Translations under genes and position numbers: made by a program
Assembly (NCBI GenBank): GCA_963854735.1
Contig: OY978097.1
Coordinates: forward strand, 1,488,001-1,552,000
Direction: 5' to 3'
From: Marvania coccoides
Lineage: Eukaryota; Chlorophyta; Trebouxiophyceae; Chlorellales; Chlorellaceae
Length of the DNA: 64,000 nt
Shown here: positions 32,814-44,512 of the stretch, in pieces
How positions within the stretch are numbered: position 1 is the first letter of the stretch
Layout: the number at the start of each line of letters is the position of its first letter
Notes under the pieces: model-generated
Databases searched by the model: none
Seen by the model: only the letters and a program-made list of their open reading frames with translations
What the model was told of the DNA's origin: nothing

Positions 32814-34347
32814 ATGTCGGGCGGAGACAGATTCAGCTTCTCGAACGCCCCGGTGCGGCGGGTGAAGGCTGTGCAGTTCGGCATCCTCGATCCCGACTTC
32901 ATCGTAAGTTTATTATTTTGTGTTGGCTGTTTGTGGGCCATTCAGACCTTGTTGTTGAATCGAGGTGTTCCCCCTTTTTCATTGTATGCCATTGCTCAGA
33001 GGCTTCGCCCTCTTTCCATGCCCCCACCACCCTCACATTCATCCCCCATTTTTGGTTTTGCAGCGTCGCTACTCGGTGGCGAAGATCGAAACATCGCAAA
33101 CGTACGAGAAGGGGCGCCCTAAGGTGGGTGGCCTGTCCGACCCGCGGCTGGGCACCATGGACCGCGCTTTCAAGTGTCTCACTGACGGCAGCGGGGTGCT
33201 CGACTGCCCCGGCTACTTTGGCCACATTGACCTCGCCAAGCCCATGTTCCACATACACTTCCTCAAGAGCGTGGTCAAGGTGCTGCGCTGCGTGAGCTAC
33301 CACACCTCCAAACTGATGATCACGCCAGAGGACCCCAAGTACAAGGCAGCCAGAAAAATCCGCAACCCGGAGCGCCGGCTGCGCGCCTTCACCCAGATCT
33401 GCCAGGGCAAGCGCGAGGACGAGCACACGGGCGCCAAGCAGCCCACCTACCGCCTGGAGCACGGCACTATGAAGATCATGGCGGAGTTTGCGCAGCCAAA
33501 GGGCGGGGCGGCCGCCCGCGAGGAGGAGGGCGGCATGATGGACGCGATGGAGCGCAAGCAGGAGATCACCGCGGAGCGCGCGCTGGAGATCCTGAAGCGC
33601 ATCTCGGACGAGGACTGCGAGGCCCTGGGGTTTGACGCGAAATTTTCCCGCCCGGACTGGATGGTGCTGACGGTGCTGCCGGTGCCGCCGCCCCCCGTGC
33701 GCCCCTCCGTGGCCATGGACTCCTCCGCGCGCTCCGAGGACGACCTCACCCACCAGCTGGGCGAGATCATCAAAGCAAACAACCGCCTGCGCAAGCAGCA
33801 GGAGGGCGGCGCCCCTGCACACATCATATCGGAGTTTGCGCTGCTGCTGCAGATGCACATCACGGGTTACATCGACAACTCGCTCCCCGGGCTGCCGCAG
33901 GCCAAGCAGCGCTCCGGACGGCCCATCAAGTCAATTTCGCAGCGGCTCAAGGGCAAGGAGGGCCGCGTGCGGGGCAACCTGATGGGCAAGCGCGTGGACT
34001 TCTCCGCGCGCACCGTCATCACGGGCGACCCCAACCTGGCGCTGGACGAGCTGGGCGTGCCGTGGGCAATTGCGCTGAACCTGACGTTCCCCGAAGTGGT
34101 GACTCACCACAACCTGGACAGGCTGATGAAGCTGGTGGAGAACGGGCCGCACCCGCCGCCGGGGGAGACGGGCGCGCGATTCATCGTGCGCGACGATGGC
34201 ACGCGGCTAGATCTGCGCTACCTGCGCAGCGACCGGGACCGCCACCTGCAGCCTGGCTACGTGGTGGAGCGGCACATGGTCAACGGTGATGTGGTCATCT
34301 TCAACCGCCAGCCGTCGCTGCACAAAATGTCCATGATGGTGAGCAGT

Positions 34348-34378
<31 letters not shown>

Positions 34379-37300
34379 GGTTAATATAGTTTGTTAGTTT
34401 GCTGGGCAAATTATATATATATATATATATATATTTAATGCCATGATCACTAACGTTTCCGTCTCCTCCTTCTCTCTCCCCCTCCACTAGGGCCACCGCG
34501 TGCGCATCCTGCCCTACTCCACCTTCCGCCTCAACCTGTCGGTCACCTCCCCCTACAACGCTGATTTTGACGGCGACGAGATGAACATGCACCTGGTGCA
34601 GGGCCAGGAGCCGCGCGCGGAGATCAAGGAGATCATGGCGGTGCCCCGCAACATCGTGTCGCCGCAAGCCAACAAGCCCGTCATGGGCATCGTGCAGGAC
34701 TCCCTGCTGGGCTGCCGTCTTTTCACCAAGCGCGACACCTTCATCGAGTACGACCTGCTGTGCAACATCCTCATGTGGGTGGAAGACTGGGACGGCCATG
34801 TCCCCCCACCGGCGGTGCTCAAGCCCCGGCCGCTGTGGACGGGCAAGCAGGTCTTTTCGCTGTTCCTGCCGCCCGTCAACCTAGAGCGCCGTGCCGCGTG
34901 GTACCGCGACGGCGAGCCCGACTCCATGTCGCCTGTGGACGCCCAGGTGGTGATTCAGGGCGGGACGGTGGTGTGCGGGACGCTGTGCAAGAAGACGCTG
35001 GGCGCGTCGGCCGGCGGGCTGGTGCACCTGATCTGGATGGAACACGGCCCCAACGCGGCGCGCGCGTTCCTGTCCCAGACGCAGTTCACCGTCAACAACT
35101 GGCTGCTGTCGCACGGCTTCTCCATCGGCATCGGCGACCTCATCGCCGACCCCCGCACCATGGCCATTATCAACGACATCCTGGCGCGCGCCAAGACCGA
35201 CGTCAAGGCGCTGATCCAGAAGGTGCAGGGCGGGGAGCTGGAGCAGCAGCCGGGGCGCTCCATCATGGAGTCGTTTGAGAACCAGGTCAACCAGGTGCTC
35301 AACAAGGCGCGCGACGACGCCGGCAACATGGCGCAGCAGTCGCTGCAGGACACCAACAACATGGTGCGCATGGTGACAGCGGGGTCAAAGGGCTCCTTTA
35401 TCAACATCTCGCAGATGATCGCCTGCGTGGGGCAGCAGAACGTGGAGGGCAAGCGCATCCCCTTTGGATTCGCGCAGCGCACGCTGCCGCACTTCACCAA
35501 GGACGACTTTGGCCCCGAGAGCCGCGGATTTGTTGAGAACTCATACCTGCGTGGGCTCACCCCACAGGAGTTCTTCTTCCACGCTATGGGCGGACGGGAG
35601 GGGCTGATCGACACCGCGGTGAAGACCGCGTCCACGGGATACATCCAGCGCCGCCTGGTGAAGGCCATGGAGGACCTGATGGTGCGCTACGACGGCACGG
35701 TGCGCAACGCCCTGGGCGAGGTGGTGCAGTTCCTGTACGGGGAGGACGGCATGGAGGGCACGTCCATAGAGGGCCAGCGCATGGAGTTCCTGCGGTGGGG
35801 GCCCCGGCGGTTTGCTGAGGCGTATCGGTGGGAGGTTGACCGCCCCGGGTGGTCGCCCGATTGGGTGGACCCTGAGCAGCTGGAGGCGCTGCGCACGGAC
35901 CCCCACGAGCGCGGCCTGCTGGAGGAGGAGTTCCGCCAGCTGGAAGAGGACCTGCTGGTGCTGCAGACGGAGGTGCTGCCCAGTGGCGACCCCAGCTGCA
36001 ACCTGCCGGTCAACCTGCGGCGCATGCTGGAGAACGTGCAGCGCAAGTTTGCGTGCAGGCCCCACAAGCGCGGCTACACAGGTATACAGTTTTGGTTTTT
36101 TTAAAGTTTTTTTCCTCGCTTAAAACATCCGACCGTCTTTTCTTTTATTAACTGTTTGTTCCTTTCACCCCCTGCAGACCTGAGCCCCTCCCACGTGGTG
36201 CGCGGCGTCAAGGAACTGTGCGCCAAGCTGCGCGTAGTGGAGGGCGGCGATGCTCTGTCCAAGGAGGCCCAGTCCAACGCCACGCTGCTCTTCATGTGCC
36301 TGCTGCGCTCCACGCTGGCCTCCAAGCGCGTGCTGGCAGAGTACCGCCTCAACCGCCTGGCATTTGAGGAGGTGCTGCGGCTGGTGGAGTCCCGCTTCAT
36401 GGCGGCAATGGCCGCCCCGGGCGAGGTGGTCGGCACCGTCGCTGCGCAGTCCATCGGGGAGCCCACCACCCAGATGACCCTCAACACCTTCCACTTTGCG
36501 GGCGTGTCCGCCAAGAACGTCACCCTGGGCGTGCCCCGCCTCACCGAGATCATCAACATCGCCAAGACCATCAAGACGCCCTCACTCACGGTGTTCCTGC
36601 TGGGGGCGGCCGCGCACGAGAAGGAGGCGGCCAAGGCGGTGCAGTGCTCGCTAGAGTACACCACGCTGCGGCGCGTGACCCAGGCCACCGAGATCTTTTA
36701 CGATCCCGAGCCCAAAACCACGGTGATTGGGGAAGACCAGGAGTGGGTGGAGGGGTACTTTGACCTCAGCGAGGGGGAGGTGGACGTGGGGCGGATGAGC
36801 CCGTGGCTGCTGCGCGTGGAGCTGGCGCGCGACATGATGGTGGACAAGAAGCTGCTGCTGAGTGAGGTGGCAGAGCGCATCAACGCTGAGTTCGAGGACG
36901 AGCTGCACTGCCTGTTCAACGACGACAACGCCGACAAGCTCATCTTGCGCATCCGAATCCTGGCCGACGACGCCGGCAACAAGGGCGACGCGGGGGGCGA
37001 CGGGGAGGAGGGCGACGACGACGTCTTCCTCAAGCGCATTGAGGGCTCCATGCTCAGCCAGGTGAAGCTGCAGGGCGTGGAGGGCATCCGCAAGGTGTTT
37101 CTGCGCGAGGCCAAGCGCACGCAGCTGGACCCCAACGCGGGCGGGTTTGTGACCGACGCTGAGTGGGTGTTGGACACTGAGGGCGTGAACCTGCTGGAAG
37201 TGATGTGCCACCCCGACGTGGACCACACCCGCACGGTGTCCAACGATATCATCGAGATGCTGAGCGTGCTGGGCATCGAAGCCGCGCGCCACGCGCTGCT

Positions 37301-40300
37301 GAAGGAGCTGCGCGGCGTGATTGAATTTGACGGCTCCTACGTCAATTACCGCCACCTGGCGGCGCTGGTGGACTCGATGACCAGCCGCGGGTACTTTATG
37401 GCCATCACCCGGCACGGCATCAACCGCGCGGAGACCGGGCCCATCCACCAGGCCTCGTTTGAGGAGACGGTCGACATTCTGTTCCGCGCTTCCACGTTTG
37501 CAGAGCGCGACGACATGGCGGGGGTGTCGGAGAACATCCTGTTGGGAGCGTTGTGCCCCGTGGGCACCGGTGCCTTCGACCTGCTGCTGGACGACGAGGC
37601 GGCGGCCAACGCAGAGGAGCTGGTGGACCTGGACGTGTTTGCCTCGTTTGGTGGCCAGGCGTTGGTGCCGGGGATGACGCCCGGGCGGTCGCCTGGCGCC
37701 ACACCCGGGCGGCTGATGAGCCCTAGCGAGATGATGAGCCCCAGCCAGGGGGTGGGGCTGTCGCCATTCAACGACGCGGTGCAATTTTCGCCCACCGGCA
37801 ACGCGCAGTTCTCGCCTGGATCACCAGCGGGGTACTCACCGACATCGTGAGGCTGCAGAGTATTTTCTTTATCTGTTCAAATGCCAATATTTTTTCCAAT
37901 ACAAGACGGCATTTTTTTCCTCGTTGTCGTTGTCTAACGCGTTCTCACTCTCTCTTCAAATTTGCGACTAATGCAGGCCTGGCTACAGCCCCACAAGGAA
38001 AGCCGGCGAAATTGCAGCACTTTCCCCCCCAATGTTCTTATGTTTATTTCCTCCTGGATCCAATAACTTTTTCATATAATAACGTATGTTTCCCCTTCCG
38101 ACGCTTGTGCAGCCCCGGGTACAGCCCAACCTCAGCAAATTACAGGTGAGAGGGATGAGATGAGGGGGACCGGTGCATGCATTAACGAGTGTTAAGCGGC
38201 AAGAAGACTGAGCGGGGTTTTGCATCACTCTGCTTTACGAGATGGCATATTTAACATTTATTTTTTTCCTTTTCTATATGCAAAGCCCGACCAGCCCTGC
38301 TTACTCTCCCACGTCGTAAGATTGCAGTCTTCTAAATGCTTCACCTCGTTTCCCTGGGGGCCCTATGCACGACGTCTTTTTTTCATTTTTTTCTCAGTGT
38401 CGTTGTTTTGCCTAACGTATTTACACCTTCTCCTCTTCAATTCGCAACCAATGCAGGCCCGCGTACTCTCCCACATCGTAAGATCGCAGTCCTTCAAATG
38501 CTTCACCTCGTTTCCCTGGAGGCCCTATGCACGGCGTCTTTTTTCATTTTTTTCTCAGTGTCGTTGTTTTGTCTAACGTATTTACATCTTCTCCTCTTCA
38601 ATTCGCAATCAATGCAGGCCCGCGTACTCTCCCACATCGTAAGATCGCAGTCCTTCAAATGCTTCACCTCGTTTCCCTGGAGGCCCTATGCACGGCGTCT
38701 TTTTTCATTTTTTTCTCAGTTTCGTTGTTTTGTCTAACGTATTTACACCTTCTCCTCTTCAATTCGCAATCAATGCAGGCCCGCGTACTCTCCCACATCG
38801 TAAGATCGCAGTCCTTCAAATGCTTCACCTCGTTTCCCTGGAGGCCCTATGCACGGCGTCTTTTTTCATTTTTTTCTCAGTGTCGTTGTTTTGCCTAACG
38901 TATTTACACCTTCTCCTCTTCAATTCGCAACCAATGCAGGCCCGCGTACTCTCCCACATCGTAAGATCGCAGTCTTTTAAATTCTTCATCTCGTTTCCCT
39001 GGGGGCCCTATGCACGGCGTCTTTTTTTATTTATTTTTCTCAGTGTCGTTGTTTTGCCTAACGTATTTACACCTTCTCCTCTTCAATTCGCAACCAATGC
39101 AGGCCCGCGTACTCTCCCACATCGTAAGATCGCAGTCCTTCAAATGCTTCACCTCGTTTCCCTGGAGGCCCTATGCACGGAGTCTTTTTTTAATTTTTTT
39201 CTCAGTGTCGTTGTTTTGTCTAACGTATTTACATCTTCTCCTCTTCAATTCGCAATCAATGCAGGCCCGCGTACTCTCCCACATCGTAAGATCGCAGTCC
39301 TTCAAATGCTTCACCTCGTTTCCCTGGAGGCCCTATGCACGGCGTCTTTTTTCATTTTTTTCTCAGTTTCGTTGTTTTGTCTAACGTATTTACACCTTCT
39401 CCTCTTCAATTCGCAATCAATGCAGGCCCGCGTACTCTCCCACATCGTAAGATCGCAGTCTTTTAAATGCTTCACCTCGTTTCCCTGGAGGCCCTATGCA
39501 CGGCGTCTTTTTTCATTTTTTTCTCAGTGTCGTTGTTTTGCCTAACGTATTTACACCTTCTCCTCTTCAATTCGCAACCAATGCAGGCCCGCGTACTCTC
39601 CCACATCGTAAGATCGCAGTCTTTTAAATTCTTCATCTCGTTTCCCTGGGGGCCCTATGCACGGCGTCTTTTTTTATTTATTTTTCTCAGTGTCGTTGTT
39701 TTGCCTAACGTATTTACACCTTCTCCTCTTCAATTCGCAACCAATGCAGGCCCGCGTACTCTCCCACATCGTAAGATCGCAGTCCTTCAAATGCTTCACC
39801 TCGTTTCCCTGGAGGCCCTATGCACGGAGTCTTTTTTTAATTTTTTTCTCAGTGTCGTTGTTTTGTCTAACGTATTTACATCTCCTCCTCTTCAATTCGC
39901 AACCAATGCAGGCCCGCGTACAGCCCCACAAGGTAAGTCGGCGAATTTGCATCATTTTTGTGTAACAACATGCTATGTTTTTCTTCCGAGAGTAGTAGTC
40001 CCAATAACGTGTGTTTCTCCTTCCGACGCTTGTGCAGCCCTGCGTACAGCCCGACTTCACCAAATTACAGTCCCACCTCGTGAGCGAGCGACAAACGGTT
40101 TATATTGGCGTTTTTTTCCTTTCAGAATTTCTATAAAATTGACGACATACAACCTCCTGGAGCGTCCCCCTCTTACCGCGTTTTCTTGTGCCCGTGCAGT
40201 CCTGCTTTTAGCCCCTCTGCCGCGACGTACAGTCCCACCAGGTTTGCTACTATTATATATGTCCATTCTTTCACTGCTTTGAAACCGGCGCCAGTCATTA

Positions 40301-40507
40301 TTTTGACGATTTTGCCATTTTTCGAGCTCCTTGTTCATGTCACGTCTTTTTATCCCTCCATCCTTCTACTGTTGCAGCCCGCAATACAGTCCGGCGTCCC
40401 CTCAGTACAGCCCCAGCGAATTTCCGCAAGATGGCGCAGGCTCTGCTGGCGGCGTCGTCTACTCTCCGACGAACCCCGAAAAATCGGAGGATCTGGCTGG
40501 GAAGTGA
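32814..40507 (+). CDS. RPB1: RNA polymerase II largest subunit RPB1
   Basis: Catalytic subunit of Pol II. Four large exons, 32814-32903, 33064-34338, 34491-36081, 36178-37846, hold the body; sixteen small 3' exons hold the CTD: 37977-37997, 38113-38145, 38286-38315, nine identical 21-mers starting 38457, 38618, 38779, 38940, 39103, 39265, 39426, 39587 and 39750, then 39912-39932, 40038-40079, 40200-40241, 40378-40507. Total 1710 residues. Seen: [10 protein letters not shown] active site near residue 480, bridge/trigger-loop region [24 protein letters not shown] and [10 protein letters not shown] before the linker. The CTD has about 21 heptads, mostly YSPTSPA, ending EDLAGK. Oddities: most clamp zinc ligands are gone, and the exon at 37977 lacks a GT donor. 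Confidence 0.95.
34350..34435 (+). repeat. T29 run and TA microsatellite in RPB1 intron 2
   Basis: A run of 29 T (34350-34378) starts 12 nt after the donor, followed by a TA dinucleotide repeat at about 34412-34435. Both are inside the 152-nt intron between exons 2 and 3. Confidence 0.9.
37977..37997 (+). other. RPB1 CTD microexon with GA donor
   Basis: A 21-nt exon encoding PGYSPT plus two bases of a Ser/Arg codon. It has a good acceptor (TAATGCAG) but the bases after it are GAAAGC, not GT. The paralogous exon at 39912-39932 has the same 3' end followed by GTAAGT. Because the exon is 21 nt and phase 2-2, skipping it keeps frame. Confidence 0.7.
38316..39932 (+). repeat. 161-163 bp tandem array, one RPB1 heptad exon per unit
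   Basis: Ten units, each a 140-142 nt intron followed by a 21-nt exon. Exon starts are spaced 161, 161, 161, 163, 162, 161, 161, 163 and 162 bp. Every unit has the same splice frame: acceptor CAATGCAG, exon beginning GCCCGCG and ending CCCACATC (nine copies), donor GTAAGATCG. The tenth exon (39912) ends CCCACAAG with donor GTAAGTCG. Intron variants recur with a 647-bp period (four units), seen by comparing units after 38638 with those after 39285. Diverged relatives of the unit flank the array on both sides (37847-37976 and after 39933). Confidence 0.97.
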
Positions 40508-40757: not shown

Positions 40758-41108
40758 TCAAACGTTGAGGAGATTCATTCCAGCGAACTCGCCCCCCTGC
40801 AGCAGCTTCCAATCCGCCAGCATGGTGCCGCGGAGGTTCTTTGGAGGTGCGCCCACAGGCAACTTCCCCGTCTGCTGGTCGAACAGCACCTTGCGGAGCA
40901 GGCGCTCTTCAGGCTGGCAGCCAAAGTAGGCGGTGGCGTCGCTGGAAGACAGTGCAGCAGATTTCATGGCACAGACGCAGCAGGACGACCCAGAGCACGG
41001 CGCTGCCATCGTGACGTGCGCCGCGTGGTGCAAGCAATTTTGCACCGTACATCGCAGCGCCGCAGAACCCAGCACACCGGCAGTCGCAATCGTTTGTGGC
41101 CGACCCAT
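40758..41108 (-). CDS. Unrecognised 116-residue protein
   Basis: A single open frame, ATG at 41108, TGA at 40760-40758, with GC-rich exon-like composition. N-terminal half is Cys- and Ala-rich (LRCTVQNCLHHAAHV, SGSSCCVCAM), C-terminal half is basic to neutral and looks folded (ERLLRKVLFDQQTGKLPVG, GTMLADWKLLQGGEF). I do not recognise a family. It ends about 250 bp past the RPB1 stop on the other strand. An intron cannot be excluded. Confidence 0.5.
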   Translation of the reverse strand: MGRPQTIATAGVLGSAALRCTVQNCLHHAAHVTMAAPCSGSSCCVCAMKSAALSSSDATAYFGCQPEERLLRKVLFDQQTGKLPVGAPPKNLRGTMLADWKLLQGGEFAGMNLLNV

Positions 41109-43796: not shown

Positions 43797-44512
43797 CGAG
43801 ATTGGCGAGATTCTAAAGGCTGAAGAGAGGCAGTCACAATGGTTTCAGCGCTCCTATTGGAATTTTTCTCTTTTCGCTTTACAAAGTTATATTTAAAAAA
43901 CGAATGGCCCGTGAAACATGTTAATCAAAACGGAGAACGTGAGAAAATGAAATTAGGCAGAGTATCCCTAGGACAGATATTCAAAATTCAAAAAATTAAT
44001 TGAAAACTCAGCACGCCGCCTGATGTTCCTGGCCGCTGAGCCCATCGCCTACGCGGCCATCCTGGCCTCCCAGCCGCCCTCCGCATCGGCAGCGGCAGTG
44101 ACTGCCGCGGCAGTGGTGGTGGCTGCCCCTAAGGCACAGCTGTAGCAGACCGTCAGGGCCTGGGCTGAGGTGGTATACGCCAACACCGGCACCGTCAAGC
44201 CCACCACTACCATCGCCCGCGGCTAGGACAAGGAGAACGCCAGCACCAGCGCCAGCACCACCAAGCCCGCCAGACCGATGGTATCAAATAAAAATCAAAA
44301 GGGAAAGAGTACGATGTCATAAAATGAGAAATTAATCGCAGAACCAGGTGATGGATGTATACGCATCGATTCCCGAAGGCAGACATAAAATTTCAAAACA
44401 AAAGGAAATAGAAAGTGGCGTTTATGCGCCACAATTAATATTTAGAAAGCAGGTTCGTTCATTCTGTTTTCGTTTCAGCGACGAAGGTAACAAAAAAAAA
44501 GTGAGCCGTAGC
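43797..44512. other. Intergenic, includes a GC-rich fragment
   Basis: 716 bp between the EF-hand gene start and the acyltransferase 3' end. AT-rich apart from the GC-rich fragment at 44021-44280 listed separately. Otherwise I see nothing. Confidence 0.5.
44021..44280 (+). pseudogene. Possible decayed coding fragment
   Basis: 260 bp of exon-like GC-rich DNA reading MFLAAEPIAYAAILASQ, then Ala/Val-rich sequence, with two in-frame TAG codons (after PKAQL and after TIARG) and continuing KENASTSASTTKPARP. No family recognised. Other genes here use TAG as stop, so the stops are probably real and the piece is non-functional, or it is simply low-complexity DNA. Confidence 0.3.

Follow-up and report, generated by a model that had tools for sequence, protein, structure and literature searches.

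In the Marvania-like green alga described here, the CTD of the Pol II subunit RPB1 appears to be encoded for the most part one heptad per exon, and these exons have been multiplied together with their introns. The repeating unit measures 161–163 bp and comprises a phase-2 intron together with a 21-nt heptad exon. Its copies follow one another head to tail within the window, by which we mean the whole 64-kb stretch of DNA that was analysed and to which all positions refer. This exon-intron structure is real and unusual. It is probably the outcome of a recent tandem amplification of the intron-plus-heptad unit, constitutively spliced, in the only RPB1 that was found.

How long the CTD is and which repeats it contains are of central importance for the function of Pol II, and CTD length is generally considered to change via recombination within coding repeats. 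In this RPB1, protein repeat, exon and intron evolve as a single cassette. Because the repeated unit includes the intron, CTD length depends on splicing, which is itself supported by the CTD.

Reconstruction of the RPB1 gene

The RPB1 gene spans 32814–40507 on the forward strand, and its exons were assembled manually on the basis of open frames and splice signals. Splicing its 20 exons (four large and sixteen small) in silico yields a protein of 1710 residues with no internal stop. The reading frame of exon 4 (36156–37850; the exon itself starts at 36178) matches PDB chains of RPB1 with an E value of 9e-179, and the two frames upstream of exon 4 returned no rows against solved structures at very strict thresholds. 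From residue 5 on, the spliced protein is 80% identical over 1706 positions to the Micractinium protein P0003. The CTD is coded by the end of the large exon 4 and by the sixteen small exons; in the spliced model it comprises 22 heptad-like repeats (21 YSP and one FSP), 13 of them YSPTSPA. The gene has the following features, all on the forward strand:

32814–32903, 33064–34338, 34491–36081 and 36178–37846, forward: exons 1–4, the RPB1 body, from in-silico splicing and protein likeness
37977–37997, forward: exon 5, 21 nt, one heptad; GA in place of the GT donor
38113–38145, forward: exon 6, 33 nt; older duplicate of the start of exon 18, ending in TAC AG within the Ser2 codon
38286–38315, forward: exon 7, 30 nt; the repeat reported by Tandem Repeats Finder begins inside it, at 38294
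38316–39911, forward: the array, ten near-identical phase-2 introns (140–142 nt) separated by nine identical 21-nt exons
38457–38477, forward: first of the nine identical one-heptad exons, 21 nt each
38457, 38618, 38779, 38940, 39103, 39265, 39426, 39587 and 39750, forward: starts of the nine identical exons
38478–39123, forward: four-unit block, repeated at 39124–39770
39912–39932, forward: exon 17, 21 nt, one heptad; GTAAGT donor; older paralogue of exon 5
40038–40079, forward: exon 18, 42 nt, two heptads
40200–40241, forward: exon 19, 42 nt, two heptad-like repeats
40378–40507, forward: exon 20, 130 nt; last heptad-like repeats, C-terminal tail and TGA stop

The first-pass annotation had described sixteen small exons after the last large exon, which ends at 37846, eleven of them exactly 21 nt long and nine identical. 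Gene reconstruction and repeat finding together confirm these counts, with the qualification that the sixteenth exon is 130 nt long and carries the C-terminal tail and the stop. The further statement that each 21-nt exon lies in a 161–163-bp unit holds for ten of them, namely the nine identical exons and 39912–39932, which is preceded by an array intron. It does not hold for 37977–37997, which lies in an older, diverged duplicate outside the array. Microexons are delimited at no more than 51 nt in PMC6600660. Fifteen of the sixteen small exons, at 21–42 nt, fall below this length, the last one at 130 nt being the exception.

With intron 4 unrecognised, RPB1 seemingly ends at the TGA of 37848–37850 after a single heptad, and a gene caller that misses 21-nt exons could terminate the gene there, which is a warning for annotation. 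Intron 2 contains a run of 29 T at 34350–34378 followed by a TA repeat. On the opposite strand, an open frame of 116 residues (40758–41108, reverse) ends about 250 bases past the RPB1 stop, and the two may be convergent genes with short 3' ends.

A recent array and a probable older duplication

For positions 38294–39921, Tandem Repeats Finder reports a period of 161, 10.1 copies, 95% matches and a score of 2902. Six repeat rows were returned for the entire window, two of which are the array (scores 2902 and 2945), the next best scoring 61, so that the array stands far above chance. A 21-base repeat in two copies at 44087–44127 has a score of 54. The array is composed of ten adjoining units of 161–163 bp, each with one intron and one heptad exon; an exon and its flanking intron repeated head to tail is what characterizes tandem exon duplication. 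All ten matches to the 161-bp unit in the genome lie inside the array.

How recent is this amplification? Introns 7–16, which are 140–142 nt long, align in 142 columns, of which 18 are variable, and copies differ from one another at 0 to 12 positions with a four-unit periodicity. Intron 9 is identical to intron 13 and intron 11 to intron 15. The closest unit copies form a duplicated four-unit block: 38478–39123 and 39124–39770 differ at 5 of 647 columns, which makes the four-unit duplication the latest visible event. These few differences among introns and blocks support the claim of the first-pass annotation that the repeat unit of the protein and the intron-exon unit of the gene were amplified together.

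All nine array exons have GTAAGA donors, TGCAG acceptors and intact heptads. We considered their complete identity as proof of selection and rejected it, since the chance of zero differences is about 0.13–0.15, given 13 intron substitution columns with intron 7 excluded.

An older layer of duplication can be traced around the array. Twelve intron pairs were aligned and each was compared with 15 shuffles. Introns 4 and 10 are identical at 78 of 127 positions (maximum of the shuffles 54), introns 5 and 17 at 71 of 105 (maximum 50) and introns 4 and 8 at 71 of 127 (maximum 64). Eight of the nine remaining pairs do not rise above their shuffles and one, 2/10, does so slightly (64 against 61). As this pair exceeded it, the shuffle control is a loose one, and we rely only on 4/10 and 5/17 with their large margins. 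It seems that an older duplication gave rise to exons 5–6 and 17–18, and that the array sits between them. Exons 5 and 17 differ at 3 sites and the first 33 nt of exons 6 and 18 at 5, a total of 8 in 54, while the introns that match these exon pairs (4/10 and 5/17) differ at 83 of 232 aligned sites. This difference indicates constraint on the exons (Fisher P = 0.003, for pairs picked after the sequences had been seen). In the protein, the Y-S-P-T-S positions of the older pairs are unchanged; of the eight exon changes, four look synonymous by eye, and those that alter the protein are at heptad positions 6 and 7.

Predicted splicing of the microexons

Each of the sixteen CTD introns (introns 4–19) interrupts a serine codon in phase 2 (TC/G, TC/T or AG/C, the slash marking the intron). 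Their acceptors are AG in 16 of 16 cases and their donors GT in 15 of 16. The exception follows exon 5, where GAAAGC lies directly 3' at the place of the expected GT; reading through would add 27 residues before a stop. Due to this GA, fifteen of the sixteen small exons are equipped for GT-AG splicing, counting the last one, for which no donor is required. Exon 5 is probably skipped. Its donor site thus provides a counterpoint to coding use: probably not all of the microexons are still functional.

The lengths of the small internal exons are always multiples of three. Together with the uniform phase 2 of the CTD introns, this preserves the reading frame whether a unit is gained, lost or skipped. 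The complete exon set encodes 22 heptad-like repeats and 21 are left without exon 5; omitting the nine identical exons leaves 13, or 12 if exon 5 is missing as well. Retention has different consequences. When any one of introns 7–16 is retained, a TAA directly follows TCG and the protein ends in ...YSPTS. More generally, a dozen of the sixteen CTD introns (4, 7–16 and 18) complete the serine when read through and then stop at once; introns 6 and 17 yield an arginine and then a stop, and introns 5 and 19 stay open. Retention of introns 4–18 leads to products with 1 to 17 heptad-like repeats. No special selection is needed for such a stop, because any phase-2 intron with a GTRA donor reads NNG-TRA.

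Of the 19 RPB1 introns, 15 contain a branch-point-like YTRAY motif, where shuffling predicts 7.9. The count is a weak one, since ten of these fifteen introns belong to the array and are copies of one another. Among the nine introns outside the array, five have the motif, and introns 1, 5, 17 and 19 lack it. A single array intron folded alone is no more stable than its shuffles (z = 1.02).

From these features we derive the explanation that we favor. The spliceosome would join all small exons normally and remove ordinary short introns, resulting in a CTD of 21 heptad-like repeats, or 22 if exon 5 were used. Whole intron-plus-heptad units would be added or removed by unequal crossing-over or replication slippage, and the array would be tolerated and vary because unit gain, loss and skipping never shift the frame. 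No regulatory role would be needed. Against this explanation stand the missing GT donor of exon 5, the four introns that lack the branch-point-like motif and the tendency of consecutive very short exons to be skipped in other systems.

Search for copies elsewhere in the genome

The genome that was searched consists of 15 contigs with 22,462,713 bases (22.46 Mb). Contig 15, of 99,873 bases, carries an rbcL of the green type, and a 1246-residue part of its rpoC2 shares 91% identity with Marvania geminata, Chlorella desiccata coming next among the named hits with 50%. The G+C content of four stretches of contig 15 is 35.6–38.1%, compared with 37.6–38.2% reported for Marvania plastids and 32.8% for the similarly sized plastid of Koliella bifissiva (99,804 bp; PMC11434904). 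We regard the alga as a Marvania-like member of the Nannochloris clade. The family PF04998 has seven matches at four gene places, on contigs C1, C3, C5 and C15. The Pol II-specific domain PF04992 matched only the RPB1 locus on C1, and the heptad family PF05001 only the RPB1 CTD, both at the thresholds used. The PF04998 genes on C3 and C5 probably encode the corresponding subunits of Pol I and Pol III, and the one on C15 is probably plastid rpoC2. The first-pass annotation had named a second RPB1 gene with an ordinary CTD as an observation that would speak against its reading. Such a gene was looked for with the three families; within the limited sensitivity of the searches, neither a second RPB1 nor a second array was found in the 22.46-Mb genome.

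Related algal DNA was also sought in other collections. Among viral contigs, eight loci with 37–47% identity were found; among genome contigs, the best 80 of 580 matches were all archaeal by title. None of these matches was used.

Putative CTD introns in related algae

Seventeen RPB1 proteins were picked from the best 120 of 5727 matches, and each of them has at least 18 Y-S-P repeats. Against these relatives, a product without the nine array exons, with its 12–13 heptad-like repeats, would be short. The most identical protein among the matches listed is P0002, with 86% over 1695 aligned positions. Its gene lies on a contig of 31,937 bases. The protein begins with VAKIE just inside exon 2 of the RPB1 described here and runs through the CTD to the tail; P0015 begins with MAKID at the same site, which fits the reading of a GTG start. 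Judged from its protein letters, P0002 appears to be an uninterrupted genomic ORF that starts immediately past intron 1 and continues as far as the stop, and its CTD would therefore be without introns.

A second set was obtained with the exon-4 frame as query (best 120 of 3827 matches). The ORF of P0241 contains three YSPTSPG and then ends in ...GYRYVMW, that of P0242 ends in ...GAYRCVF and that of P0245 in ...GAGYR. In P0243, an apparent intron, seemingly retained in frame, follows GY at the start of the CTD and precedes 27 uniform YSPTSPA heptads, again ending in ...AYR. A tyrosine followed by an arginine at the break of an ORF is the reading expected from a TAC AG/GT donor. These endings suggest phase-2 introns between Tyr1 and Ser2 in four of the five top rows among the matches listed. 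P0244, the fifth, departs after GYSPTSPG in another way. Four rows further down were read as well: P0248 and P0258 continue across a long series of heptads, the partial P0251 (Helicosporidium) stops among the initial repeats, and P0282 diverges upstream of the CTD.

CTD introns therefore seem to be frequent in the nearest relatives and not general. The first-pass annotation had stated that the CTD usually lies in one or few exons. That view fits the closest relative, which looks intronless there, and needs qualifying in view of the same-phase CTD introns that the other ORFs suggest. What would set the present RPB1 apart is that its CTD introns have been multiplied together with the heptad.

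Alternative explanations

Could the array do more than encode heptads? It might set CTD length by splicing, with skipped units leading to shorter in-frame CTDs and retained introns to a stop after Ser5, a reading that we regard as unlikely. The heptads would then be optional cassettes, each followed by an in-frame stop upon retention of its intron, and the RPB1 mRNA pool would encode polymerases with graded CTDs, which we consider similarly doubtful. All skips are frame-neutral in the six exon combinations computed, read-through stops at once in three quarters of the CTD introns and the retention products cover a wide range of repeat numbers. The CTD itself promotes splicing, so that feedback could arise, and graded CTDs might act in this way on splicing capacity. 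However, the stop follows automatically from the phase-2 GTRA donor, transcripts with retained introns may simply be degraded and the folding of the array intron is unremarkable. A quite unlikely possibility is that the array is a non-coding relic, which the transcript skips altogether; exon 4 or 7 would then be spliced directly to one of exons 17 and 18. One phase is used throughout the small internal exons, so that omission of the nine identical ones would keep the frame and a dozen or so repeats, and exon 5 is an example of microexon decay. Against this stand the intact heptads, donors and acceptors of all nine array exons, an argument weakened by their recent origin, and the larger repeat numbers of the seventeen relatives.

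Two further readings concern the origin of the copies. That the number of units, or the array itself, is an artefact of assembly appears very unlikely. With two pairs of identical introns and two nearly identical four-unit blocks the exact unit count could be wrong, but most copies are non-identical, others show as many as 12 differences, indels among them, and the reading frame closes through unique flanking exons. It is highly improbable that the introns arose by repeated insertion of introner-type mobile elements into heptads, as near-identical introns at equivalent positions of one gene might at first suggest. Introners would be dispersed as near-identical introns over many genes, and no such pattern was found, with the reservation that diverged copies could be missed. 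The array intron, intron 4 and intron 17 have no match outside RPB1 at E values up to 10. Used as a query, the array intron retrieved the ten introns of the array. Intron 17 brought up its own sequence together with the end of intron 5. The only match of intron 4 was its own sequence, its diverged array relatives being missed; these searches skip very common words, overlook diverged copies and are not exhaustive. Moreover, the repeat unit includes the exon and recurs as a four-unit block, which fits duplication and not independent insertion. Recent amplification of the spliced intron-plus-heptad unit remains the explanation that we prefer.

Comparison with known systems

Among the titles and abstract openings listed by searches of an open-access collection, there was no described case of an RPB1 with one heptad per exon, which is not proof of absence. 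Like the CTDs of other green-algal RPB1 proteins, the one presented here consists of tandem YSPTSPX heptads after a linker containing F-S-P; it differs from them in having most heptads one per exon and an intron-exon repeat at the DNA level. P0002, in contrast, appears to be contiguous throughout this region. The ORFs of P0241, P0242, P0243 and P0245 end or are interrupted at Tyr-Arg, and intron 6 of the present gene lies at the same kind of site. Their putative introns are located where the CTD begins or next to heptad blocks, in a comparison made from ORFs, where one-heptad exons are invisible.

More distant parallels exist in other gene families. Collagen-type and micro-exon genes contain small symmetric exons whose lengths are multiples of three and which carry one motif each. 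This RPB1 shares their small exons of such lengths with one repeat motif per exon; it differs in being a core transcription enzyme, in its near-identical introns and in having one recent array. Clusters of mutually exclusive exons, as described in PMC9013439, likewise consist of an exon copied in tandem. In contrast to the exons of those clusters, the copies in the present array are identical and, in the simplest reading, all joined instead of being chosen singly.
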